Shown here in pieces: positions 1,640 to 15,687 of a stretch of 17,589 nt of DNA. Position 1 is the stretch's first letter. Each line of letters begins with the position of its first letter. A model generated the notes under the pieces. It saw nothing but the letters and a program-made list of their open reading frames with translations, ran no database searches and was not told the origin of the DNA. The position numbers and the translations under genes were made by a program. The stretch is taken from contig CAKJXT010000023.1 in NCBI GenBank assembly GCA_918219625.1, positions 1 through 17,589 on the forward strand, in the 5' to 3' direction. Origin of the DNA: Bacilli bacterium (GTDB lineage: Bacteria > Bacillota_I > Bacilli_A > RF39 > UBA660).

Positions 1640-2557
1640 ATGAAGATAAACCCAGGTAAATATTTAGATGAAAATTTTGAAGTGCCAAAAGGTTTTATTC
1701 TTCCTCAATGGGACTTCATAGAAATGAATTTGAATGCAATTAAGATGAAAGAAGATGAATTAATCAATTTGTTTGATGTTTCAAAAACGGCATTAAATCA
1801 TTGGAAAAATGGTGGAAATATCAGTATTGATAAAATAGCGGTATTGTGTGAATTATTTGGTATAACTATAGATCAATTTTATGAAAGAGATTTTAATGAT
1901 GATTATGCATTAGATGACTTTCTTGGATTATCAAAATATAAAGATTTATCTAATTGCAAGGAGTATACCTATAACGATTTGCATTGGTTGTTTGATAAAT
2001 TAAATGAATTTATGTTTTATACAGAATTCTTTGCACTAGGATATATTCCATTAGATAAAGACGATGACAATCTAGTTGATGTAGATGAAGATTGCTATAA
2101 ACATTATATAAGTTCTGATGAGGTCGATTATTTTTGTCAAACTTTGGATATGAATATTTCATATGATACCAATGGTGGCAAGACAAAAAAGATAGAACAC
2201 ATAACTTATAAAGAATTATGTAAAGTAGCAGATGAATTAAGAAAGGATTGGGGAGACGATTCCTTTAATCATATATCCGCAACACCATCGGCAAAGTATA
2301 AAAAAGTAGTAATGCTATCTGAAAACATTAAATTCTTAAAAGAATATATATCTAAAAATGATTGTAAGGATGAATTATTAAATTTATGGTGTGTTTTAAA
2401 GCAGGAAGATGATTCTTATGATGTGGATTCTTTGATGGCAAAAACTCTTATCTCAAATGGTGCAATCTTAAAGGATGTAGAATCAACATTTAAGCTATGT
2501 AATGAAATATTTGATAATGATATTAAAAAAGTGGAGGTGAATAAGAATGGCAAGTAA
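1640..2557 (+). CDS. Second HTH protein with long acidic C-terminal region
   Basis: A 305-residue protein with an HTH at about residues 30-82. K-E-D-E-L-I-N-L-F-D-V-S-K-T-A-L-N-H-W-K-N-G-G fits the helix-turn-helix, and I-A-V-L-C-E-L-F-G-I-T-I-D-Q-F-Y the closing helix. The first 25 residues precede the HTH, and about 220 acidic, D/E-rich residues with no recognised domain follow it. The HTH is related in style to that of the preceding gene, but the C-terminal parts do not look alike. The start at 1640 follows GAAGGGA. The gene overlaps the exonuclease gene by 11 bases, which implies coupled translation and probably a physical or regulatory partnership. Confidence 0.78.
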   Translation: MKINPGKYLDENFEVPKGFILPQWDFIEMNLNAIKMKEDELINLFDVSKTALNHWKNGGNISIDKIAVLCELFGITIDQFYERDFNDDYALDDFLGLSKYKDLSNCKEYTYNDLHWLFDKLNEFMFYTEFFALGYIPLDKDDDNLVDVDEDCYKHYISSDEVDYFCQTLDMNISYDTNGGKTKKIEHITYKELCKVADELRKDWGDDSFNHISATPSAKYKKVVMLSENIKFLKEYISKNDCKDELLNLWCVLKQEDDSYDVDSLMAKTLISNGAILKDVESTFKLCNEIFDNDIKKVEVNKNGK

Positions 2558-4586
2558 GAAGAGATTTTCCAAAGACCCTAAAGTAAATCTTATTTCTATA
2601 GAAGAGTTTTATGAGAATAGTGATTATCTATGTTGTGTTACGAAGAAAGATTTGTGGAAGACAAAAACTCAACCTGATGCAGGAGATGTACTATTCAAAT
2701 TTACTCCGCAATATTTGATTTGTACTATATATGATTATTCATTTACTAATTTTGGTATGGATATTAGGGAAAAACTTGAAAGAATAGATGTAGCAATTCG
2801 TGATGGTAAAACCGAATATGAATTGTTTGATGCCAAATTAAATGTATTAAAAGAAGAAAGAGCAAAACATAAGAGAAGCAAGAAATTGGATGAGCAGATT
2901 GCTGAAATGGAAAAAGCAAGAAAATTACTTCCAAAATATGCAGAAAAAGAAACACCGAGTGCAAAGCCATTTGAATCATATTTGATTGATACAGGATATA
3001 AAACATCAAAAGAAAATCTTAAGAATAAATATTTGGTATTTGATGTTGAAACAAATGGAACTAGAAAATCTAATGATGATTTATTATCTCTATCAATTTA
3101 TGACCCAACAACTGGAATGTGCTACAATCGATATTTTCCATTAGAACTTCAACCATTAATATTAACTGGATTTATTCATGGAATAGATGATTCAACATTA
3201 GCTGATTCTACTCATATGACTCAAGAAGAATTAAATTGGTTAAAAGAGTATTTTCACTTTAAAGATAGAATTCTATTATCATTTAGTGGAGGACAGGGAA
3301 CATTTGATTCATCTTTTGTGCAAAATTATTGTAATAGACAAGCTATATTTGGGTTTGATGATTTAAAATTTGAAAACATTAAGAGCAAAATTCCATCAGC
3401 TCCATTTGGTGCTGAAGGTCAATTAACAAAAGATAATCTTTGTAGAATGTTTGGAATAGAAGGGGTTAATGAGATTCACTCAAGTTATAATGATTGCATA
3501 TTAGAGTGGAAGTTGTTTGAAAAATTAGAATCTGAATGTGTATTCTTTATTGGAGAACATTTGTTTAAATACACCCCAGAATATATAATTCCTTATTCAT
3601 ATTTATTCCAGCATCCAGATTTAGTTAAGTATGCAGGTATTAAAATTCCATATGTTGAAGGAAAGGTTACTGAATTATATAAGTTAGGATTTCCAAAGAA
3701 ACTACTTAAGGAAATCAAAAAGTTTCCAACTAATATCACTGGAGTAACTATTGAGCATGGAATAAACAGATATTTAAAGGCAGAAGAGCAGGATAACTTT
3801 ATGTTCTTGGCCGAGAATAAATCACACTTAAAATATGTTGGCTCATTGGATAGTAAGATTAAAGAGATTCCTATAATTACTGAAAGTGATGGAACTGTTA
3901 AAGCAATTAAGGAAGAAGATAAAGAATATATCAATCAAGTTAATTCAGTTACTAAGATGATTATTGAACATATAAAACCAGTTGCAGATTATCTTCGTGA
4001 GAATATTTTTAAAGAAGATAGGATTATGACTCAAGAATTATCTATAACAGATGATAGAAAGGTATTAGCTCTTTGTGATTTATCTGATAGCAAAAATGTT
4101 GTGGAAATTAAAACTTATGATGTTTTAGATGATGATAATAACTTAAGTAAAAAAGTTGCTAGACAGTTATATTTCCAGGCAAAGGGAAGAAATACATATG
4201 TTCTTTCAATTAAGTTTGATACTCATTTCAACGATAGAACCTTTGAATCTATAGTTGATGACCTTAATATCTATTTATACAAAGCTGAATTATCTGAATA
4301 TGATCCAACAACTATTGTTAAGGAAAGAATATTAAATGATACCGAAATTGAAGTTTTAAAGAATATAATTGAAAATCCAAATATATGTAAGACTGAATTA
4401 GCATCAAAATTTGATTGGACACCAAGAATGGTTGAAAGACATCTATATGTTTTAGAAGTTCTAGGATATATTAAAAAAGAAAATCCTTCTGCGAGAAAAT
4501 CACCTTGGATTGTACTAAGAAATATTGATGATATTAAGACTAATTACACTATGGATGGATATGAAATCAAAGTTGTACATAAATAA
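2547..4586 (+). CDS. DEDDh 3'-5' exonuclease with C-terminal winged helix
   Basis: A 679-residue protein. Residues 160-330 carry a DnaQ-like exonuclease domain: F-D-V-E-T-N-G gives D166 and E168, T-F-D-S-S-F gives D254, and H-S-S-Y-N-D gives H311 and D316. The DEDDh set is therefore complete, with the family's H-G-I-D-D segment at 211-215. Residues 72-135 look like a charged coiled coil. Residues 596-657 resemble a winged helix (E-I-E-V-L-K-N-I-I-E-N-P, then R-M-V-E-R-H-L-Y-V-L-E-V-L-G-Y-I). The middle, 330-590, is unassigned. The expected reaction is two-metal 3'-5' removal of nucleotides from DNA or RNA. No polymerase is attached, so this is not a proofreading subunit. The start at 2547 follows GGAGGT (2533-2538). 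As the last gene of the operon it looks like the effector. Confidence 0.82.
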   Translation: MASKKRFSKDPKVNLISIEEFYENSDYLCCVTKKDLWKTKTQPDAGDVLFKFTPQYLICTIYDYSFTNFGMDIREKLERIDVAIRDGKTEYELFDAKLNVLKEERAKHKRSKKLDEQIAEMEKARKLLPKYAEKETPSAKPFESYLIDTGYKTSKENLKNKYLVFDVETNGTRKSNDDLLSLSIYDPTTGMCYNRYFPLELQPLILTGFIHGIDDSTLADSTHMTQEELNWLKEYFHFKDRILLSFSGGQGTFDSSFVQNYCNRQAIFGFDDLKFENIKSKIPSAPFGAEGQLTKDNLCRMFGIEGVNEIHSSYNDCILEWKLFEKLESECVFFIGEHLFKYTPEYIIPYSYLFQHPDLVKYAGIKIPYVEGKVTELYKLGFPKKLLKEIKKFPTNITGVTIEHGINRYLKAEEQDNFMFLAENKSHLKYVGSLDSKIKEIPIITESDGTVKAIKEEDKEYINQVNSVTKMIIEHIKPVADYLRENIFKEDRIMTQELSITDDRKVLALCDLSDSKNVVEIKTYDVLDDDNNLSKKVARQLYFQAKGRNTYVLSIKFDTHFNDRTFESIVDDLNIYLYKAELSEYDPTTIVKERILNDTEIEVLKNIIENPNICKTELASKFDWTPRMVERHLYVLEVLGYIKKENPSARKSPWIVLRNIDDIKTNYTMDGYEIKVVHK

Positions 4587-4717: not shown

Positions 4718-6301
4718 ATGGCTAAAGAATTTAATAGTCTATATAACTGGTGTATTTCCAATGATAAGGAATATATTTTAGATGAATGGAACAATGAAAA
4801 AAATGGTATTTCGCCTAAAGAAGTATCATATGGATCAGGTTTAAAAAAATGGTGGAAATGCTCAAAATGTGGACATGAATGGGAAGCAGTAATTAATCAT
4901 AGAACAACAAGAAATCAAAAATGCCCTATGTGTTATGGAATTAATAATGTAAAACCAGGGATTAATGATCTGAAAACAAAATGTCCTGAATTGGCCAAAG
5001 AATGGCATCCAATAAAAAATGGTGATTTAACACCTAGTAATATTTCATATAAAAGTGGTAAAAAAGTATGGTGGCTTTGTCCAAAAGGACATGAATACCA
5101 AGCTAAACCACGTGACAGAGTAGAAGATGAAACTAAATGCCCTATATGTTCATCAAGACGTAGTACATCATTTCCTGAACAAGCATTATATTATTATATA
5201 AAAAAAATATGTCCTGATGCTTTGAATAGATACAAGGATATTTTTGATAATAAAATGGAATTAGATATTTATATACCTTCAAAAAAACTAGGTATAGAAT
5301 ATGACGGAAAGAATTGGCACAAGACAGAAGAACACCATCAAAGAGAAAGAATAAAATATCAATTATGCAGTGAAAAAGGTATCTTATTACTTAGAGTTAA
5401 GGATGGTAAGTCAGATTATTGGAATGATGTTGCAAGTAAAATGTTTTGGGTAAAAAATTCAAAAAATAAAAATGACTTGCAAAGTATTATACAAGAGGTT
5501 ATAGACTATCTTGACCCAGAAATAAATATGTTTACTAAAAATCCTTTTAATCCTAAGATTCATTCTGATGTTTTAGTTGATTTAGAAAAAGATAAAATGG
5601 AAATAGCTAAATATTTAACAGATATTAACGATTCAATTGCAAAAACAAGACCAGATATAGCAGAACAATGGGATTATGAACATAATAATCCATTAACGCC
5701 AGAGATGTTTTCAAAAGGTTCTAATGAAAGTGTTTGGTGGATATGCACAGTATGTGGAAAGAGTTATAAATCTGTAATTAATCACAAAAATAGAGATGAT
5801 TCTAGATGCTGTCCTAAATGTGCTAATGTCAAAAGTGGTAAAACCTTTGTAGAATATAAAGTTAAAGAAGTTGGATCACTACTTGAGACAAATCCTAAAT
5901 TGGCTAAAGAATGGCATCCAACAAAAAACGGTGATTTAACCCCTGACAAAATTACAGCTGGAAAGTTTAAAAAAGTATGGTGGTTATGTCCTAAATGTGG
6001 ATATGAATGGCAAGCTAGTCCAAATAATAGAAATAAAGGAATAGGTTGTCCTCATTGTTCTGGTAGAGTTGCAATGCCAGGTGTAGACGATATCGTGGCA
6101 TTAAATATGCCGTATCTTGATGAGTGGGATTATTCTAAGAATGATGGCTTGAATCCTAATTTGTTTTTGCCTAAAAGCGGTAAAAAAGTATGGTGGAAGT
6201 GCAAAAAATGTGGTTATGAGTGGGAAACGGAAATTAGAATGAGAACTAATGGACATGGTTGCCCTCGTTGCGGACATAAAAGAAGCGGTAGGAAAAAATA
6301 G
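4718..6301 (+). CDS. Zinc-ribbon (DUF4379-like) protein with embedded Vsr/DUF559-like nuclease, paralogue 1
   Basis: A 527-residue protein with two zinc-ribbon units (about 8-74 and 83-146), a nuclease core (about 150-235), a 75-residue linker, and three more units (about 306-371, 387-449, 458-519). Each unit has an EW-containing head, a V/K-W-W segment, then C-x2-C or C-x3-H, and later C-x2-C. The core has S-F-P-E-Q-A, M-E-L-D-I-Y-I-P and G-I-E-Y-D-G-x-x-W-H, giving candidate catalytic E154, D183 and E194 of the PD-(D/E)XK/Vsr type, with a terminal L-L-R-V strand. The likely activity is DNA cleavage, with the ribbons binding nucleic acid; both are inferred from family features. The start at 4718 follows ATGGAGG. 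It lies 29 bases before paralogue 2 and is probably cotranscribed with it. Confidence 0.82.
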   Translation: MAKEFNSLYNWCISNDKEYILDEWNNEKNGISPKEVSYGSGLKKWWKCSKCGHEWEAVINHRTTRNQKCPMCYGINNVKPGINDLKTKCPELAKEWHPIKNGDLTPSNISYKSGKKVWWLCPKGHEYQAKPRDRVEDETKCPICSSRRSTSFPEQALYYYIKKICPDALNRYKDIFDNKMELDIYIPSKKLGIEYDGKNWHKTEEHHQRERIKYQLCSEKGILLLRVKDGKSDYWNDVASKMFWVKNSKNKNDLQSIIQEVIDYLDPEINMFTKNPFNPKIHSDVLVDLEKDKMEIAKYLTDINDSIAKTRPDIAEQWDYEHNNPLTPEMFSKGSNESVWWICTVCGKSYKSVINHKNRDDSRCCPKCANVKSGKTFVEYKVKEVGSLLETNPKLAKEWHPTKNGDLTPDKITAGKFKKVWWLCPKCGYEWQASPNNRNKGIGCPHCSGRVAMPGVDDIVALNMPYLDEWDYSKNDGLNPNLFLPKSGKKVWWKCKKCGYEWETEIRMRTNGHGCPRCGHKRSGRKK

Positions 6302-6330
6302 TAATCTTTAAAAAAGGAGGTGTGCTTATC

Positions 6331-8130
6331 ATGAGTAAACAATTAATTTTTGATTTTGATAATGATGAAATAAAGGAAGTTGAAAAAGAAAATAGTTTAT
6401 ACAATTGGTGTTTAAAGAATGATAAGCATTATATTCTTGATGAATGGGATTATAGTAAAAATATGGATAAAACACCTAAAGATGTTGCAGCTGGCACTGA
6501 AAAAAAATATTGGTGGAAATGCAAGACATGTGGATATGAATGGTTTATCAGTCCTAATCATCGAAAAAGAGGGGATAATTGTCCAAAATGTGGAAGAATC
6601 AAATGTGGAAAAAACAGAACAAGCAATTTACTAGCAAATCATAATTTAACAATAGATTATCCAGAAATATTAGACAAATGGGATTATGAAAATAATGAAA
6701 AGGGCCCAGAAAATTATTCTATCGGATCCAAGAAGAAATTATGGTGGAAATGTGACAATGGGCATCGTTGGGAATCAACACCAAGGAATATTCTGATTAC
6801 TAAATATTGCCCATATTGTTTTGGAAGATATGCAATAGAAGGGGAAAATGATCTACTTACACTTAATCCTGATTTAGCAAAAGAGTGGAATTATGAAAAG
6901 AATGGTGATTTAAGGCCAAATATGGTTAAAGCTGGATCAACTTACAAAGTTTGGTGGAAATGTGAAAAAGGGCATGAATGGCAAGCTACTATTACGAATA
7001 GGACAAAAGGCAGAAATTGCCCTTTTTGTAGTAATTATCGAAGAGTATCAATCCCTGAAAAAATAGTTTATTTTTATATTAATAATTACTATGAACATGT
7101 AGAAGCAAATTACAAATTGCCTAGTTTTAATAATATGGAATTTGATATTTACATACCAGCTAATAAAATAGCTATTGAATATGATGGTGTTGCATGGCAT
7201 AGTGATATAGCAAGGGATAAGGCTAAAGATGAATTAGCTAGTAAAAGTGGTATTAATTTGATTAGAATTAGGGAGAAAAATCTTCCTAATTATAAAACAA
7301 ACGCAAAGTTTATTATTACAAAAAATCCTACTGAGGACATGACATACTTAAAAGATACGATATTAGAACTATTTGAATACATAAACAAAAAATATGGTTA
7401 CGATATCAATCCGATTATTGATATAAGAAATGATTATCCGAAAATATTAGAAATTATGAATTATGAAGAAAAAAGTAATTCTTTAGAAACAAAATTTCCG
7501 GATGTTGCAAAAGAGTGGAATTATGAAAAGAATGGCGAATTAAAACCTAGCCAAATATCACCAGGCTCTAGCAAGTTAGTTTGGTGGAAGTGTGAAAAGG
7601 GTCATGAATGGCAAAATACTCCTGCAAATAGAACTAATAAAGACAATATGAATAATTGTCCATATTGTAAAAATAAAAAAGTGTGGCCAGGGTTCAACGA
7701 TTTAGTCACAATTAATCCTAAAATTGCATCTCAATGGAACTATGAAAAGAATGGTGATTTAAAACCAACAATGGTAACTATAAAGTGTAGTAAAAATGTA
7801 TGGTGGAAATGCGAAAAAGGTCATGAGTGGCAGGCAAGAATTTATTCTAGGGAAAAAAGTAACTGTCCATATTGTGGTAACAAGAAAGTAATTATTGGTG
7901 AAAATGATTTGTGTACTACTCATCCAGATATTGCAAAAGAGTGGCACCCAACTAAAAATGGGGAATTGAAACCAGAAATTTTTACTTTTGGTTCAAACAA
8001 AAAAGTTTGGTGGATATGCCATATCTGTGGTTTCGAGTTTGAAGCAATGATTTCGTCCAGAACTGGAAGAAAGAACCCAACGGGATGTATTAATTGCTAC
8101 AATAATAAAAAATATAGAAACAAATTATAG
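6331..8130 (+). CDS. Zinc-ribbon (DUF4379-like) protein with embedded Vsr/DUF559-like nuclease, paralogue 2
   Basis: A 599-residue paralogue of the preceding gene with three ribbon units before the nuclease core (about 22-90, 104-166, 173-236) and three after (about 384-450, 457-518, 525-593). The core at about 239-320 keeps S-I-P-E-K-I, M-E-F-D-I-Y-I-P and A-I-E-Y-D-G-V-A-W-H, giving E243, D272 and E283. A short unique N-terminus (about 20 residues, acidic) precedes N-S-L-Y-N-W-C, which is also at the start of paralogue 1. I chose ATG 6331 because GTG 6322 would sit against the AAAGGAGG site (6313-6320). Most units use C-x2-G-H as the first ligand pair. The role is as for paralogue 1. Confidence 0.82.
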   Translation: MSKQLIFDFDNDEIKEVEKENSLYNWCLKNDKHYILDEWDYSKNMDKTPKDVAAGTEKKYWWKCKTCGYEWFISPNHRKRGDNCPKCGRIKCGKNRTSNLLANHNLTIDYPEILDKWDYENNEKGPENYSIGSKKKLWWKCDNGHRWESTPRNILITKYCPYCFGRYAIEGENDLLTLNPDLAKEWNYEKNGDLRPNMVKAGSTYKVWWKCEKGHEWQATITNRTKGRNCPFCSNYRRVSIPEKIVYFYINNYYEHVEANYKLPSFNNMEFDIYIPANKIAIEYDGVAWHSDIARDKAKDELASKSGINLIRIREKNLPNYKTNAKFIITKNPTEDMTYLKDTILELFEYINKKYGYDINPIIDIRNDYPKILEIMNYEEKSNSLETKFPDVAKEWNYEKNGELKPSQISPGSSKLVWWKCEKGHEWQNTPANRTNKDNMNNCPYCKNKKVWPGFNDLVTINPKIASQWNYEKNGDLKPTMVTIKCSKNVWWKCEKGHEWQARIYSREKSNCPYCGNKKVIIGENDLCTTHPDIAKEWHPTKNGELKPEIFTFGSNKKVWWICHICGFEFEAMISSRTGRKNPTGCINCYNNKKYRNKL

Positions 8131-8278
8131 TGCGATTATACCAGTTGATTAATGACTATGTAAAACAAGTGTATGTTATACCAAATTATAATTAAATGAC
8201 TGATTAATTTCAAACAATTTTGTTGTTTAAAAAAATGATAAACATAACTATAATTATGGCATAATAAGGAGGAATATA

Positions 8279-9727
8279 ATGAGTTGGTTAATATATAAAC
8301 ATACAAATTTAATAAATGGCAAAGTATATATTGGCCAAACAAAACAAGCTCCAAATAATAGATGGAAAAATGGGTCTGGCTATTTGAAAGATCAAAGGCT
8401 GTCAGTATTTGCTTTAGCTATAAAAAAATATAATTGGACTAATTTTTCTCATGAAATAATTGAAAGTAATATTGAGACTCAAGAATTAGCTAATGAGAGA
8501 GAAATGTACTGGATAAAGTATTATAATTCATATATAGGATTTGATAATACTAATGGCTATAATATGACTTTAGGCGGTGATTCAGGTGAGCACCTTGGAT
8601 ATCCGGTGTATCAAATTGATAAGGACACAATGAGAGTAATAAACGAGTTTCCTAGCACTTCTGAGGCATCAAGATTTTTTGGAAATGGCGAGGCTAATGC
8701 TTCTCAAATAAGAAGATGCTGTGATGGGGAAAAACATTCATGTAAAGGGTATTTTTGGTGTTACAAGAAGAATTATTCCCTTGATTGGAAGCCTAAAGAT
8801 AATGCTTTATTATCTCCAGTTTATCAATTAGATGATAATTATGAAATAATTAAAAGATATGATTCAATTACTGAAGCTGCTAATATAAATGGTTTTAGTA
8901 GAGGAAGTATAATGAGTTGTTGTCAAAGAAAACAACAAAAGGCAAATGGTTATTATTGGTGTTATGAATCAAATTATTCAATTGATTGGGAACCAACTAA
9001 GGTAAGCTTTACAAGAAATAATAATATATATTGTTTTGAAACTGGTATAGTATATAAAAGTGCTATTGATGCTTCAAAACAAACAGGAGCAAATTATGGA
9101 CATATAAGAAGAGTATGTTTAGGAAAAGAAAATGCTGCTAATGGACTTCATTTTTGCTATGAGAAGGACAAGGATAACTTTATTATAAAATCAAATATGG
9201 ATGAAAGTCCTGTTGTGTGTGTAAATAGTGGGAAGCACTATAAAACAATTTCTGATGCATCTAAAGATACAGGATGTAGTCAATCGAATATTAGTGCTTG
9301 TTGTATGGGTAAAATGAAAACATCAAGAGGGATGACATGGTGTTACGAAAAAGATTATTATAATGGTATGGAGATTAATGTAGGCAAGGAGAAGAAGGTT
9401 ATATGTGTAGAGACTGGTATAATTTATAAGTCAGCAAGTGAGGCTTGTCGTATTTTAAGAATAAGTAGCGGAAATATGAGCGATGCATTAAAGAAACATT
9501 CACCAGCAAATAAGCTACATTTTGCATATTATGATAGTTATAATTCAGATAAATGGATGCCTAAGGAAAATAAAACAAAAAAAAGAATAATCTGCGTAGA
9601 AACTAATATAGAATATGAAAGTGCTGCTGATGCAGAAAGAAAAACAAAAATAAGTAGAGGTAATATTCATAGAGCTTTAAAATATGGAGGTACAGCTGGT
9701 GGATTCCATTGGAAATATAATGATTAA
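8279..9727 (+). CDS. GIY-YIG endonuclease with six NUMOD1-like DNA-binding repeats
   Basis: A 482-residue protein. The N-terminal 100 residues are a GIY-YIG nuclease: L-I-Y-K-H-T-N-L-I-N-G-K-V-Y-I-G-Q-T (4-21), R28, E75 in E-R-E-M-Y-W-I, and G-Y-N-M-T-L-G-G at 93-100. The usual first G of GIY is L. Six NUMOD1-like repeats follow at about 109-168, 180-236, 249-298, 310-361, 373-420 and 436-482, each with a V-Y/I-C strand, an x-S-A-x-x-A-S helix and a C-terminal G-x-x-W-C-Y. This layout is typical of homing endonucleases. Here no intron or inteo-like host is visible, and the gene is free-standing between paralogues 2 and 3. AAGGAGG (8266-8272) fixes the start. It lies 148 bases after paralogue 2 and 12 before paralogue 3. 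Confidence 0.85.
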   Translation: MSWLIYKHTNLINGKVYIGQTKQAPNNRWKNGSGYLKDQRLSVFALAIKKYNWTNFSHEIIESNIETQELANEREMYWIKYYNSYIGFDNTNGYNMTLGGDSGEHLGYPVYQIDKDTMRVINEFPSTSEASRFFGNGEANASQIRRCCDGEKHSCKGYFWCYKKNYSLDWKPKDNALLSPVYQLDDNYEIIKRYDSITEAANINGFSRGSIMSCCQRKQQKANGYYWCYESNYSIDWEPTKVSFTRNNNIYCFETGIVYKSAIDASKQTGANYGHIRRVCLGKENAANGLHFCYEKDKDNFIIKSNMDESPVVCVNSGKHYKTISDASKDTGCSQSNISACCMGKMKTSRGMTWCYEKDYYNGMEINVGKEKKVICVETGIIYKSASEACRILRISSGNMSDALKKHSPANKLHFAYYDSYNSDKWMPKENKTKKRIICVETNIEYESAADAERKTKISRGNIHRALKYGGTAGGFHWKYND

Positions 9728-9739
9728 GGAGTGGTTATT

Positions 9740-11650
9740 ATGACATTAACTGAATGGAGCAAATTAAATAATAAGAACCTACTTAATGAATGGGATTATT
9801 TGAAAAACAGCGATTTTATGCCATATGATGTTTCTTTTGGTAGTGATAAAAAAGTTTGGTGGAAATGTGAAAGGGGTCATGAATACCAAGAAAAAGTCTC
9901 AAAAAGGACTCTTAGAAATTTTGGATGCCCTTACTGCTCAAATCATAAAATTTTGAAAGGGTATAATGACTTGGCAACAACAAATCCTGAATTATTGGAA
10001 GAATGGGATTATGAAAAAAATGAAAATATAAAGCCAACAGAAGTTTTTGCAGGAAGCAGTAAAGAAGTATGGTGGAAGTGCAAAAATGGTCATGAATGGA
10101 TTGCAACTATATTCAGGAGAAAAAATGGTAGTGGATGTCCATATTGTTCTAATCAAAAAGTTCTTAAAGGATACAATGATTTTGAAACACTGTATCCCGA
10201 TTTGGCAGAAGAATGGAATTATGAAAAAAATGCACCATTGCTTCCTTCACAAATTGTTTCTGGTGGAGATAAAGTTGTTTGGTGGAAATGTAAAGAATGT
10301 GGCTTTGAGTGGAAAACTCAAATAAAAGTTAGGACTAAGTTGGGCAACGGATGCCCCAATTGCTTTAAATATCATTCCACATCATTTAATGAACAAGCAG
10401 TATTATTTTATATTAAGAAAAGCGAGTATAAAGTGGAAAATAGTGTTAGGATAAATGGCCTAGAGTTGGATATTTTTATACCTGAACTAAAAACAGGAAT
10501 TGAATATGATGGTTTAAAATGGCATAAAGATATACTTGATAGAGATAATAATAAAGATGAAGTTTGCGAAAATGAAGGCATAAAGCTTATTAGAATAAGA
10601 GAAAAAGGACTTGAAAAAACTAAGAGCGCAATAAACTTATTTAGAGAGTCAAGGTCTAACGATGACTTGAATAAGATTATTAAGAAATTGATTGATTATT
10701 TGAAATTAGAACCAGTATTTATAGATGTAAAAAAAGATAGAAATGAAATAATATCTTCATATATAATTAGCAAAAAAGATAATAGTTTGCAAGAAAAATA
10801 CCCTGAGTTATTAAAAGAATGGAATTATGAAAAAAATCAGATGTTAAAACCAAATATGATTACACCATTTTATAATGATAAAGTATGGTGGAAATGTTCT
10901 GATTGTGGTTTTGAATGGGAGGCATCACCAGCTAATAGGGTAATGGGTACTGGTTGCCCTAAATGTTCATTAAAGAGAGCAAGTAATACTAGGAAAAATA
11001 ATATACTGCAAAATGGAGGAAGCTTTGCTGATAAGAATCCAGAATTACTAGAAGAATGGGATTATGATAAAAATACAATAGATCCATATAAGGTGAATGC
11101 TGGGTCAGGTGAAAGTGTTTGGTGGAAATGCAAAAACGGGCATAGTTGGAGGACAACTATTGAAAATAGAAACAAAAAAATAGGTTGTCCATATTGTAGC
11201 GGTAGATATAGGGTTAAAGGAGTAAATGACTTAAAAACATTATATCCAGATTTGTGTGAAGAATGGGATTATGGTAAAAATATAGAGTTGACTCCTGATG
11301 AAATTGCGCCTGGTAGTTCAACTAAAGTATGGTGGAAATGTAAGGAAGGACATAGTTGGGAAGCAACTGTTGCTAACAGAGCTTTAAGAGGACAAAAATG
11401 TCCATATTGTTCCGGGAAAAAAGTGATTTCTGGGGAAAATGATTTAGCCACAAAATGCCCGGAATTACTAGAAGAATGGGATTATGGTAAAAACGCAAAT
11501 GTTTTCCCAAATAAAATCATGCCAGGAACACACAAAAAAGTTTGGTGGAAATGCAAAAACTGTGGATTAGAGTGGGAAACTGCTGTTAGAAATAGAGCTA
11601 TTCTAAAGACAGGCTGTCCATCTTGTAATAGAAGCAAAAGGAAGATATGA
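9740..11650 (+). CDS. Zinc-ribbon (DUF4379-like) protein with embedded Vsr/DUF559-like nuclease, paralogue 3
   Basis: A 636-residue protein, the longest of the three. It has three ribbon units before the core (about 3-69, 76-139, 146-210) and four after (about 349-411, 427-488, 497-560, 567-632). The core at about 213-292 keeps S-F-N-E-Q-A, L-E-L-D-I-F-I-P and G-I-E-Y-D-G-L-K-W-H, giving E218, D244 and E255. I chose ATG 9740 because AAGGAG (9726-9731) is 8 bases upstream and the in-frame GTG at 9731 overlaps that site. The N-terminus (T-L-T-E-W-S-K-L-N) differs from the L-Y-N-W-C start of paralogues 1 and 2. The repeat sequences are close enough that recombination between genes or units is plausible. 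It is coupled closely to the GIY-YIG gene. Confidence 0.82.
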   Translation: MTLTEWSKLNNKNLLNEWDYLKNSDFMPYDVSFGSDKKVWWKCERGHEYQEKVSKRTLRNFGCPYCSNHKILKGYNDLATTNPELLEEWDYEKNENIKPTEVFAGSSKEVWWKCKNGHEWIATIFRRKNGSGCPYCSNQKVLKGYNDFETLYPDLAEEWNYEKNAPLLPSQIVSGGDKVVWWKCKECGFEWKTQIKVRTKLGNGCPNCFKYHSTSFNEQAVLFYIKKSEYKVENSVRINGLELDIFIPELKTGIEYDGLKWHKDILDRDNNKDEVCENEGIKLIRIREKGLEKTKSAINLFRESRSNDDLNKIIKKLIDYLKLEPVFIDVKKDRNEIISSYIISKKDNSLQEKYPELLKEWNYEKNQMLKPNMITPFYNDKVWWKCSDCGFEWEASPANRVMGTGCPKCSLKRASNTRKNNILQNGGSFADKNPELLEEWDYDKNTIDPYKVNAGSGESVWWKCKNGHSWRTTIENRNKKIGCPYCSGRYRVKGVNDLKTLYPDLCEEWDYGKNIELTPDEIAPGSSTKVWWKCKEGHSWEATVANRALRGQKCPYCSGKKVISGENDLATKCPELLEEWDYGKNANVFPNKIMPGTHKKVWWKCKNCGLEWETAVRNRAILKTGCPSCNRSKRKI

Positions 11651-11674: not shown

Positions 11675-12478
11675 ATGAATGATGATATAAGGGACAAATA
11701 TAATTACAAAGATTTCCTTGCCACAACGAGTGAAGTTAGCTTTGTTGATAGTGAAGGTAGAGAGTATGTTAAGGTTGTATGTATAAAAGAATATAAAGAT
11801 GTCTATGCAAAAAGAGTAATAAAAAAAGGCGAAATAGGCGGGGAAATTGCAAAGGGATTATGCCCTGAGTGGTGGATTGAAGAAGGCCAACGTGTCGGAT
11901 ATCCAACTACTGAAGTTTGCAGATTAACAGTTGAAAAGAAGAAAAAGATAGATCATTCTAAGATATTATTATTTAAAGATGAAATTGCGGAGATAATGTT
12001 TTTTTGGTTAATTAATTATCAAACTAGAGAAAAATCGATTTACAATGCATGTATCTCTCACACAGAAAGGATACCTCAAATTGCAGCTGAAATGTTTGAT
12101 ATCGAAGAAAAATATATTGCTCAGCCTAACAATACAAACGAATCACAATTAATAATTCTCTGGGTTCTATTAGGTGCAATTCAAGAGGCAATTTTAAAAA
12201 TGCATCTTGTTGCCAGAAGAGATTATTACAATGATTTTATTGAAAAAAATAAAAGTATTGAAAAAGTGAAAGTTAATGTCATATTAAATCAATTTAAGAA
12301 TGATGAAACAATAGACAATCATGAATATATAATTCTTGAGAAAATTAATGGGAATAGGAATTTAATCCACATATTAAATAATGAGTCGGTATATGGATAT
12401 GAAATCTATTGTGAATATGTGAATGAGTTGTATGGGGTGCTAAAAAAACTATATGGTATAGAAAAATCTACCAAGTAA
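11675..12478 (+). CDS. Protein of unknown function, last gene of nuclease cluster
   Basis: A 267-residue protein with no domain I recognise. It has a lysine-rich middle (E-K-K-K-K-I near 91-96), aromatic residues around P-E-W-W-I-E, and a mostly helical C-terminal half. It has no signal peptide. A hydrophobic stretch near I-I-L-W-V-L-L-G-A-I is more likely a buried helix than a membrane segment. The gene starts 24 bases after paralogue 3 with no good ribosome site in front, so it probably relies on coupling to the upstream gene; an in-frame stop just upstream excludes a longer start. A strong terminator follows. Its place suggests a partner or immunity role in the nuclease cluster, but that is inference. 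Confidence 0.7.
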   Translation: MNDDIRDKYNYKDFLATTSEVSFVDSEGREYVKVVCIKEYKDVYAKRVIKKGEIGGEIAKGLCPEWWIEEGQRVGYPTTEVCRLTVEKKKKIDHSKILLFKDEIAEIMFFWLINYQTREKSIYNACISHTERIPQIAAEMFDIEEKYIAQPNNTNESQLIILWVLLGAIQEAILKMHLVARRDYYNDFIEKNKSIEKVKVNVILNQFKNDETIDNHEYIILEKINGNRNLIHILNNESVYGYEIYCEYVNELYGVLKKLYGIEKSTK

Positions 12479-12603: not shown

Positions 12604-12860
12604 GAAACAGATAGGAGTATCTAGTAGCCTATCTGTCGGGGACTAAACAGTCATAATTGCCGCTTATACTAATAGCGGCTTAGTCAGAGAGTAAAATGCC
12701 AAAAAATCGCAAACACCTGGGTTAGTGGGTTACTATCTAATAGCCCACTAACGAGGGAGTAGAAGATCCAAATAATGGCTATTATCTAATAGCCTACTTG
12801 TCGTGTATTTTAAAACTATAGAGGGGTCTATACTAATAGCCCCTCGGTCGTATACTAAAC
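12604..12860. repeat. Array of five related stem-loops with conserved loops and variable stems
   Basis: Five hairpins lie at 12607-12636, 12659-12679, 12721-12752, 12777-12794 and 12821-12845. Their stems differ in sequence (AGATAGG, GCCGCT, TTAGTGGG, GGCTAT, GAGGGG) but all pair perfectly or nearly so. The loop 3' sides share TATCTAATAG or TATACTAATAG. Most are followed by GTCG or a near match and preceded by an AAAC-like run. Stem change with retained pairing shows that structure is under selection. They lie 40-66 bases apart, without an open reading frame, between the cargo terminator and the DUF4177 gene. They could act as RNA (tandem folds as in some RNA antitoxins or sponges) or as DNA hairpin or protein sites. 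The family is unknown to me. Confidence 0.6.
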
Positions 12861-13921: not shown

Positions 13922-13981
13922 TTGATTTTCTATCACTAATGATGCTATCATATTAACACTAATACGAGTAGTATTTGATAG
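13922..13981 (+). promoter_or_regulatory. Recombinase promoter with repeated CTATCA boxes
   Basis: TTGATT (13922-13927), an 18-base spacer and TG-C-TATCAT (13943-13951) form a reasonable promoter. CTATCA occurs at 13930 and 13945, and its reverse complement TGATAG ends at 13981. One copy overlaps the -10, so a repressor binding these boxes could control integrase expression. Confidence 0.45.
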
Positions 13982-13995
13982 GGAAAGGAGAATTA

Positions 13996-15687
13996 ATGTT
14001 TCAAGTAGAAGTTCTTAAAGCTAATGGAAAAACCATTAGTAATCGTAATCAAACACTAGATCGTTTAAAAGTATGTGCTTACTGTAGAGTATCTACAGAC
14101 ACAAAAGACCAAATAAATAGTTATAATTCACAAGTAACCTATTACAAAAACTTAATAAAAGATAATCCAAAATGGATATTCGCTGGAATCTACGCAGATC
14201 CAGGTATAACAGGAACTAAAACCGAAAAAAGAGATGAATTCAACAAAATGATTAAAGATGCTAAAGAAGGCAAGATAGATATGATTCTAACTAAGTCAAT
14301 ATCTAGATTCGCTAGAAACACTTTAGATACTTTAAAATATGTTAGATTGCTTAAAGGCCTAAATGTCTCTGTTAAATTTGAAGAAGAAAACATCAACACC
14401 CTTACAATGGAGGGAGAGATGCTTCTAACCATTTTATCAAGCGTTGCCCAACAAGAAGTAGAAAATATAAGTGCCAATGTTAAAAAAGGCTTAAAAATGA
14501 AAATGCAACGTGGAGAAATGGTAGGCTTTAAAGCATGCCTTGGCTATGACTATGATAAAGAAACAAGAAACCTAGTCATTAACGAAAGAGAAGCTGAAAT
14601 AGTTAGATATGTCTTTAATAGATTCCTTGATGGCTATGGCTCAACTTTGATAGGAAAAGAACTAGAAGAAAAAGGATATCTAAATAAAGAAGGAAAATGC
14701 TTCTGGCCAGAAGGAACTGTCTACACTATGGTAAAAAACGAAAAATACAAGGGAGATTTAATGATGGGCAAAACATATACCCTAGATCCTATAACAAAGC
14801 GTAAAATGAAGAATTACGGGGAACAAGATATGTTTTATGTAAAAAACCATCATGAGCCAATTGTAAGTAGAGAAATATGGGATAGAGTAAACGAAATCTT
14901 AGCTATAAGAAGCGCTCCAAGAAAAAAGGCTGTTGAAGGACTTCATCTAATTAAGACAAAAATGTATCCCTTTAGCTTAGTCACAAAATGTGGATTCTGT
15001 GGTGGTCCAGCATATCGTAGAACAGTACACTCTTCTACACCTTATGCTAAACCAACATGGAGATGCATATGTGCTGCTAAAAAAGGTAAAAAGTTGTGCC
15101 CTGAATCAGTTTCGTTTGATGAAGAAATCCTAGAAGAAGCCTTTCTTGAGGCATTTAATAAGATTCTAGCATCAAATGATGATACAATAAAAGAATTCCT
15201 AGAAGACTTAAAAACAAGCCTAAATTTAGTCGATAACAAAGAAGAAATTGATTCGCTAATGAAAGAAGTAGATAGACTTGAAAGCCTAAAAGAAAAGCTT
15301 ATACAAATAAGGACTGAAGGAGTTCTATCAAAAGAAGATTTTGAAAATAAGTATCTAATATATCAGGCTGATGAATCAAAGCTAAGGGATAAAGTAAAAG
15401 CCTTAAAACAAGAAGAAGAAAATAGTAGATCTACTATTGATCATGTTAATAACTTCTTAAAGACACTAAAGGAAAAAGAAGAATTAACTGAATTTAATGA
15501 TAATGTATTTAATTCTGTGATTGAGAAAGTAATAATAGGTGAAAAAAATGATGATGGAACAAGTAATCCTTACATGGTTTCATTTATATTTACTGGTGGT
15601 TTTATAACAAAAGTTGATTTAACAAAAGATAGACAAATCAAAAGACTTATAAGACTTAGAAATGACAGATTGCTTAATAAAATTTAA
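13996..15687 (+). CDS. Large serine recombinase (site-specific integrase)
   Basis: A 563-residue protein of the usual size for the family. Residues 25-170 are the resolvase catalytic domain: C-A-Y-C-R-V-S-T-D places the nucleophile at S33, and S-I-S-R-F-A-R-N (101-108) supplies conserved arginines. Residues 180-305 match the recombinase DNA-binding domain. Residues 326-390 are the zinc-ribbon domain, with C332, C335, C357 or C359, and C368. A coiled coil spans about 415-500. All key residues are intact. Such enzymes integrate elements by cutting both strands at attP and attB through a 5'-independent serine linkage. I chose ATG 13996 because AAAGGAG (13984-13990) precedes it; an in-frame TTG at 13975 would precede that site. 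It lies at the right end of the island, as expected for an integrase. Confidence 0.93.
   Translation: MFQVEVLKANGKTISNRNQTLDRLKVCAYCRVSTDTKDQINSYNSQVTYYKNLIKDNPKWIFAGIYADPGITGTKTEKRDEFNKMIKDAKEGKIDMILTKSISRFARNTLDTLKYVRLLKGLNVSVKFEEENINTLTMEGEMLLTILSSVAQQEVENISANVKKGLKMKMQRGEMVGFKACLGYDYDKETRNLVINEREAEIVRYVFNRFLDGYGSTLIGKELEEKGYLNKEGKCFWPEGTVYTMVKNEKYKGDLMMGKTYTLDPITKRKMKNYGEQDMFYVKNHHEPIVSREIWDRVNEILAIRSAPRKKAVEGLHLIKTKMYPFSLVTKCGFCGGPAYRRTVHSSTPYAKPTWRCICAAKKGKKLCPESVSFDEEILEEAFLEAFNKILASNDDTIKEFLEDLKTSLNLVDNKEEIDSLMKEVDRLESLKEKLIQIRTEGVLSKEDFENKYLIYQADESKLRDKVKALKQEEENSRSTIDHVNNFLKTLKEKEELTEFNDNVFNSVIEKVIIGEKNDDGTSNPYMVSFIFTGGFITKVDLTKDRQIKRLIRLRNDRLLNKI

Follow-up and report, generated by a model that had tools for sequence, protein, structure and literature searches.

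Three DUF4379 zinc-ribbon genes with a central Vsr-type core in a Bacilli contig are probably separately acquired homing-type endonuclease genes

Several families of homing endonuclease genes (HEGs) are named in the accessible parts of earlier work (PMC3943268, PMC3984707, PMC6083498), and homing without an intron is described in one of these articles (PMC6083498). The available portion of a 2025 paper on phage group II intron HEGs reports modules distantly related to CapR, DUF4379, and DUF723, and its authors name these HEGs a large unrecognised outgroup of the EDxHD/Vsr HEGs (PMC12350094). Repeated CapR/DUF723/DUF4397 zinc fingers are likewise carried by T5orf172 HEGs, where they are discussed as a route to new targets (PMC10448857, as far as its text is accessible). 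Here we analyzed a stretch of 17,589 nucleotides from a Bacilli bacterium (contig CAKJXT010000023.1), hereafter the window, in which three genes, A, B, and C, each place a nuclease-like core between DUF4379 zinc-ribbon units. An earlier note, made from the sequence alone, proposed that the three copies either recognize different things or form a hetero-complex, and knew of no established target for such ribbons; this last statement can be improved on, in that solved DUF4379 proteins are found in kinetoplastid mitoribosomes and the accessible text of PMC12350094 places modules distantly related to DUF4379 and CapR in homing endonucleases. Our best explanation, to which we give a probability of roughly 0.6, is that mobile endonuclease genes of homing type were acquired three times independently, as A, B, and C, and that these are not parts of one machine. 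The homing-type reading is based on their architecture, the kinship of the core with I-Bth0305I, the conservation of likely catalytic residues, placement in the core tree as non-sisters, scattered occurrence with unrelated flanks, a single-gene insert with an empty counterpart, and mostly purifying selection.

The three genes and their parts are as follows.

4718..6301, + strand: gene A, 527 amino acids; two DUF4379 units, EDxHD/Vsr-like core, linker, three DUF4379 units
4778..5149, + strand: A, N-side treble-clef units (2)
5141..5617, + strand: A, nuclease core and linker (E154, D183, E194)
5666..6271, + strand: A, C-side treble-clef units (3)
6331..8130, + strand: gene B, 599 amino acids from the ATG at 6331; three units, core, three units
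6442..7029, + strand: B, N-side treble-clef units (3)
7021..7488, + strand: B, nuclease core and linker
7513..8097, + strand: B, C-side treble-clef units (3)
9740..11650, + strand: gene C, 636 amino acids from the ATG at 9740; three units, core, four units
9788..10363, + strand: C, N-side treble-clef units (3)
10352..10774, + strand: C, nuclease core and linker
10817..11626, + strand: C, C-side treble-clef units (4)

The common architecture proposed previously (ribbons, core, linker, ribbons) was borne out, with an open reading frame at each of these positions and DUF4379 units flanking one core in each, in the layouts 2+3 (A), 3+3 (B), and 3+4 (C). Pfam assigned 5, 6, and 7 DUF4379 (PF14311) stretches to A, B, and C (E=5.3e-97, 2.2e-112, and 1.7e-141), and the scores of 318, 368, and 461 bits, compared with a gathering score of 24.5, place all three in the family. 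The zinc ligand set WWxC...C/H...CxxC is intact in all 18 units, and the “linker” of C is ordered and helical in the predicted structure. Of the 261 places confirmed in a genome scan, 80 were kept as loci; these were found through the core and not through the ribbons, ribbons stood on both sides of the core in 76 of their 83 core genes, and this both-sided layout is beyond chance. The comparison of divergence between cores and ribbons that had been suggested showed no part standing out as faster, since core identities were 32% (A and B), 43% (A and C), and 38% (B and C) and the median ribbon identity was approximately 43% both within and between proteins. The same median means that no recent duplication of units is visible; several nearest unit pairs sit within one protein, some of them across the core.

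The best sequence match of the core in the PDB was the EDxHD homing endonuclease I-Bth0305I (3R3P, E=1.3e-5 with a 16-row core profile), which was also the only chain below E 0.3 with that profile, and a confident structure model agrees with this kinship, placing the core in the Vsr/restriction-like fold. The restriction endonuclease family MTES_1575 matched the cores of A, B, and C weakly, below the Pfam cut-off (E=2.4e-4, 0.0038, and 1.2e-7, respectively). The motifs S, E, ExD, IExDG, H, and K are invariant in the core alignment, with 3R3P departing from the profile at two places (N for D and A for H), and the likely catalytic residues are invariant in 61 core rows. The E, D, and E pointed out in the earlier note are present in all three cores (E154/D183/E194 in A, E243/D272/E283 in B, and E218/D244/E255 in C, the numbers for B and C running from the internal ATGs at 6331 and 9740 and not from upstream GTGs), and the degeneration of the cores that it had considered was not found, the likely catalytic residues being conserved. 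Each of the three proteins is probably a DNA-cutting enzyme within a string of zinc-binding modules.

Copies of the core were counted within the stretch read at each locus, where contig ends and a 10-kb flank limit the count. One core gene was found in 77 of the 80 loci and two in L094, L096, and L115, the pair in L115 being one of DUF4379 type and one of HA type. A search with PF14311 in 20 of these genomes gave matches in 19, of which, among the matches listed, 15 read as carrying one DUF4379 gene and four (G001, G002, G014, and G016) as carrying two or three; these numbers are a reading of unit counts and open-frame lengths for copies of DUF4379 type, HA-type copies not being counted. The second DUF4379 gene of G014 (the genome of locus L124, contig C9) is an open frame of 558 amino acids approximately 25 kb from the first. 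Additionally, in a sample from the class the core was present at E<=1e-15 in 16 of 391 genomes, with at least one core shown in 13, at least two in two, and at least three in one, counts that are lower bounds because at most 10 candidates were scored per genome; G002, G010, and G016, at least, also belong to the 80-locus set. A single copy is therefore usual by each of these counts, the very outcome that the earlier note had named as making a multi-component system unlikely, and within the limits of the counts copies do not co-occur in fixed sets.

In the core tree (113 rows, with few columns and many open forks) A pairs with L161 (support 100/88), B falls in a group of 14 rows (99/96), and C in a group of four (99/80), and A, B, and C were united in none of 200 bootstrap trees. 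A nine-row fork holding C and one core each of L094 and L096 had weak support (83/80) and was drawn open. The suggestion of a hetero-complex is thus opposed by copy number and by the non-sister placement of the three genes alike. A hetero-complex arising by local duplication was rejected as the main explanation on the tree and the single-copy counts, with the result of the approximately unbiased (AU) test and the two-copy neighbors of C, both given below, as caveats.

The surroundings of the core genes differ from locus to locus, with the most shared neighbor family occurring in 7 of 80 loci and a serine recombinase family in 4 of 80 (families here are blastp groups and not functional annotations). 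L157 and L164 share a stretch of 1666 nt at 97% identity, which begins 60 bp ahead of the first unit; L164 has two units fewer, and blastn over up to 1.5 kb of each flank found no other match. Of 101 genomes in the genus of L109, 7 have a relative at E<=1e-60, the copy in G123 having an in-frame stop. The L109 gene lies directly 3' of the transfer-messenger RNA (tmRNA) gene, and in the empty counterpart in G043 (L232) the sequence found to the right of the L109 gene directly follows the tmRNA (96.5% over 144 nt), such that the insert of approximately 2.0 kb comprises a short hairpin-like stretch and, after it, the nuclease gene. The block after the tmRNA in G043 may itself be mobile, because in G085 it follows about 50 extra bases. 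Three of the 20 tmRNA loci examined carry the gene (20 of 88 matching genomes, of 101). Loci around tRNA-Pro and around matches to the flanks of L157 (L175 to L193) lack the gene, and the right flank of L157 was not matched to them as a continuation, hence we make no claim of an empty site there. Close relatives are mostly under purifying selection as judged from their sequences: the ratio of nonsynonymous to synonymous substitution rates (dN/dS) stayed under 0.5 in every part that could be measured, the core of L156/L162 excepted (nine pairs run, one saturated). Some copies of the core gene are frame-split; an apparent split in L130 was dropped, as masked Ns lie there. The DUF4379-type gene on Lactobacillus kefiranofaciens plasmid pWW1 (L215) is annotated as two overlapping pieces and that on a Mesobacillus foraminis plasmid (L216) as four short pieces, which might be expected of decaying selfish genes. 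Terminal inverted repeats were rejected as a general feature; they reached 11 nt at most in 80 genes, and among the best 14 listed, L151, L146, and L164 exceeded the largest of 20 shuffles.

A same-strand transfer RNA (tRNA) or tmRNA gene ended within 600 bp upstream of 17 of 86 core genes (81 loci, the window included; for example L109, L134, L157, L126, and L114); among 598 control genes from these loci the number was 6 (odds ratio 24, p=6e-12, a significance inflated by relatedness). After removal of near-duplicates the count for core genes was 15 of 79. A second sample, of 16 loci and partly new, had a tRNA within 600 bp for L241 and for L238, which is apparently the L172 locus again, and one at 624 bp for L246; L239, L240, and L242 had an upstream tRNA on the same strand at 1.3-2.1 kb, and L236 a downstream one. 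None of 125 viral core genes was tRNA-associated, in loci of which only 7 hold tRNAs and among genes most of which are without DUF4379 units. Repeats of 22 and 48 nt that start in the tRNA end were found 5.9 and 2.5 kb after the gene in L096 and L105, respectively. As a general feature, a repeat of the tRNA end right after the gene was rejected (at least 8 nt within 300 bp in 3 of 18, namely L135, L172, and L109, vs. 22 of 327 control windows). Candidate sources of the association are islands at tRNA genes and targeting by the nuclease.

The window appears to be an entire contig, its GC content is approximately 30%, and no near match to it was found among phages and plasmids. Two further genes belong to the setting of A, B, and C.

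8279..9727, + strand: GIY-YIG endonuclease with NUMOD1 / I-HmuI-NUMOD-like modules (TIGR01453 group I intron endonuclease, above cut-off)
13975..15687, + strand: large serine recombinase (Resolvase, Recombinase, Zn_ribbon_recom)

The GIY-YIG/NUMOD gene is a fourth homing-type gene of the cluster, between B and C; B starts 29 bp after the end of A, and C 12 bp after the end of the GIY-YIG gene. The serine recombinase suggests a mobile element around the cluster. The only Rfam match in the window up to E 0.5 was a sub-threshold RybB, with no intron around the GIY-YIG gene or A, B, and C, and an intron or intein home for the three was set aside on the lack of an Rfam intron in the window, inteins not having been searched for. 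No tRNA was found in the window. Genes for a helix-turn-helix (HTH) protein and a DEDDh exonuclease-like protein lie upstream of the three, the latter (2547-4586) ending in a winged helix. It was rejected as a partner because nothing in the 19.9 kb read around a 50% relative (L219) matched A, B, or C, and a viral scan with it found no relative. A word-based search of 5.8 billion proteins found, at E<=0.001, only two other relatives of the gene directly 3' of C (11675-12478). Furthermore, positions 12621-12860, where no gene is listed, hold four imperfect 28-nt repeats (CTAATAGCC...GTCG) with spacings of 48, 117, and 47 nt.

If A, B, and C are homing-type genes, the array of treble-clef modules in each protein would serve to bind a long DNA site, the central Vsr/EDxHD-type core would cut the bound site, and repair from a gene-carrying copy would spread the nuclease gene; that the target is DNA, that both strands are cut, and that the gene is copied during repair of the break is what we infer. 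The serine recombinase element probably picks up such genes passively, along with the GIY-YIG gene. Several observations weigh against this explanation. The relative in G074 (85% identical in amino acids; L228) sits at a non-tmRNA site between two copies of TCCACCA, the G126 insert at the tmRNA site (L229) has TCCACCA on both sides, and such repeats around an insert point to a recombinase or a transposition-type route more than to classical homing; L109 has an altered right copy, and G124 none right after the gene. The empty site was seen for the relative L109 (vs. G043) and none for the window's own cluster. The L156/L162 core has a dN/dS of 1.24, with very few changes, and the L157/L164 core shows no synonymous change. 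The rows nearest to C are P0002 and then L094_9989 and L096_8477, the latter two from two-copy loci, and the AU test did not reject a single clade of A, B, and C (p=0.094); with this value, the few columns, and the many open forks, separate acquisition is favored and not proved. It is the two-copy loci, together with the proximity of three intact divergent copies, that could speak for a true three-subunit system in which A, B, and C form a hetero-complex, given that L094 and L096 each have one copy near C and are its nearest loci. However, their other copies are not close to A or B, the gene order differs, and the loci nearest to A and B (L161 and L147) have a single core gene, as do nearly all others, which makes such a system highly improbable.

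The TCCACCA repeats, the siting at tRNA and tmRNA genes, and the long tRNA-end repeats of L096 and L105 would also be expected if the nuclease gene moved as a cassette, in a single-gene element driven by transposition or a recombinase and using tRNA/tmRNA 3' ends; its own core, or an integrase working from another location, would make the break. We consider this quite unlikely, as repeats of the tRNA end close behind the gene are few, the window has no tRNA, the viral core genes show no tRNA siting, and the partly new sample added only L241 besides the apparently repeated locus. Also unlikely, if somewhat less so, is that the element keeps the nucleases as defense or competition cargo, cutting incoming phage or rival mobile DNA at array-set sites without homing. 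Relatives on plasmids and near serine recombinases, the mostly low dN/dS, and the HTH and DEDDh exonuclease-like genes preceding A, B, and C would suit such a role, but PADLOC (2023 library) gave only weak partial matches for the three (best E 0.0005), no partner is constant among the neighbors, and some copies are frame-split. Binding of RNA by the arrays, with the core a ribonuclease or an inactive RNA-binding fold, is very improbable, even though the structures solved for DUF4379 relatives are those of mitoribosomal proteins or assembly factors and the Vsr-fold protein FASTKD4 is reported, in the accessible text, to bind RNA without nuclease activity (PMC11879112). The invariance of the likely catalytic residues and the kinship of the core with a DNA homing endonuclease argue for DNA. 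The NUMOD, GIY-YIG, and HA modules seen in fusions and neighbors are DNA-related, which we also count against RNA.

The other proposal of the earlier note, that each copy may recognize something different, is compatible with the observations, as is the view of each protein as a nuclease carrying modular binding parts. The same core occurs with 6-12 HA repeats (PF03457) and no DUF4379 match in P0011, P0019, L097, L165, and L115 (8444-11554), and in P0011 the HA repeats flank the core on both sides. When the HA label is placed on the tree against the 18 tRNA-side rows alone, two changes are needed, of which the starred branches force only one. An I-HmuI-NUMOD-like module stands at the end of three homologs, one of them above cut-off. 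A 40% relative of the DEDDh exonuclease-like gene (L220, G261) has two DUF4379 stretches at its end in place of the winged helix (Pfam 28.0 bits vs. a cut-off of 24.5); our own unit profile did not detect them. From the HA swap, the NUMOD ends, and these DUF4379 ends, the arrays fit exchangeable binding parts. A comparison of array identity with insertion site in 22 rows showed no rule: the same-site pairs L138/L139 and L123/L130 have like arrays, yet L148 and L124, 91-95% alike and equal in unit number, share only 120 bp of upstream flank (L148 having 400 bp of sequence downstream). Variable columns among 532 profiled units appeared by eye to be spread, with no concentration of hypervariable recognition columns. 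A wider idea, which we regard as tentative and on balance doubtful, is that a constant Vsr-type core within exchangeable DUF4379 or HA arrays that set the DNA target forms a minimal one-gene mobile element settling at conserved sites, in particular on the tRNA/tmRNA 3' side with a TCCACCA repeat at some, and that the array-to-site code could be read from insertion sites; this would amount to a modular nuclease that is re-programmable by nature.

If arrays do set the target, the many natural proteins (261 confirmed places in one scan), which have a single core and, among those surveyed, as many as 10 modules, would make the recognition code learnable from insertion sites. Should the homing-type explanation be correct, what is annotated as “zinc-ribbon domain-containing protein” would become a probable mobile nuclease, and the cluster would show that such genes can come together through repeated arrivals and need not form a complex.

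Related HEGs are already known (PMC12350094, in its accessible part), while the central core, the exchange of arrays between DUF4379 and HA, and the tRNA/tmRNA 3'-side siting were not found described in the literature searched, in which tRNA/tmRNA was searched narrowly, HA repeats were not a topic, and few subscription journals were covered. According to the same accessible text, the phage intron HEGs resemble A, B, and C in having several modules of about 60 amino acids distantly related to DUF4379 and a domain distantly related to EDxHD/Vsr, but they are intron-encoded and carry the nuclease C-terminally after 3-5 modules, whereas A, B, and C have a central core flanked by modules at either end, with no intron found. 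I-Bth0305I shares the sequence profile and fold of the core, its solved chain being the catalytic domain only and differing at the two residues given above. The neighboring GIY-YIG/NUMOD gene is similarly a homing-type nuclease with repeated modules, of another nuclease family and with other modules. The T5orf172 nuclease also belongs to the GIY-YIG class; as far as they are described in the accessible text, the T5orf172 HEGs resemble A, B, and C in joining a homing-type nuclease to zinc-finger modules that are repeated and related, and differ in that the nuclease is T5orf172 where A, B, and C have a Vsr core. The kinetoplastid mitoribosome proteins mt-SAF33, mS66, and 6yxx_E2 share the treble-clef unit, with the best-matched stretches lying in the units, and their setting is ribosomal.

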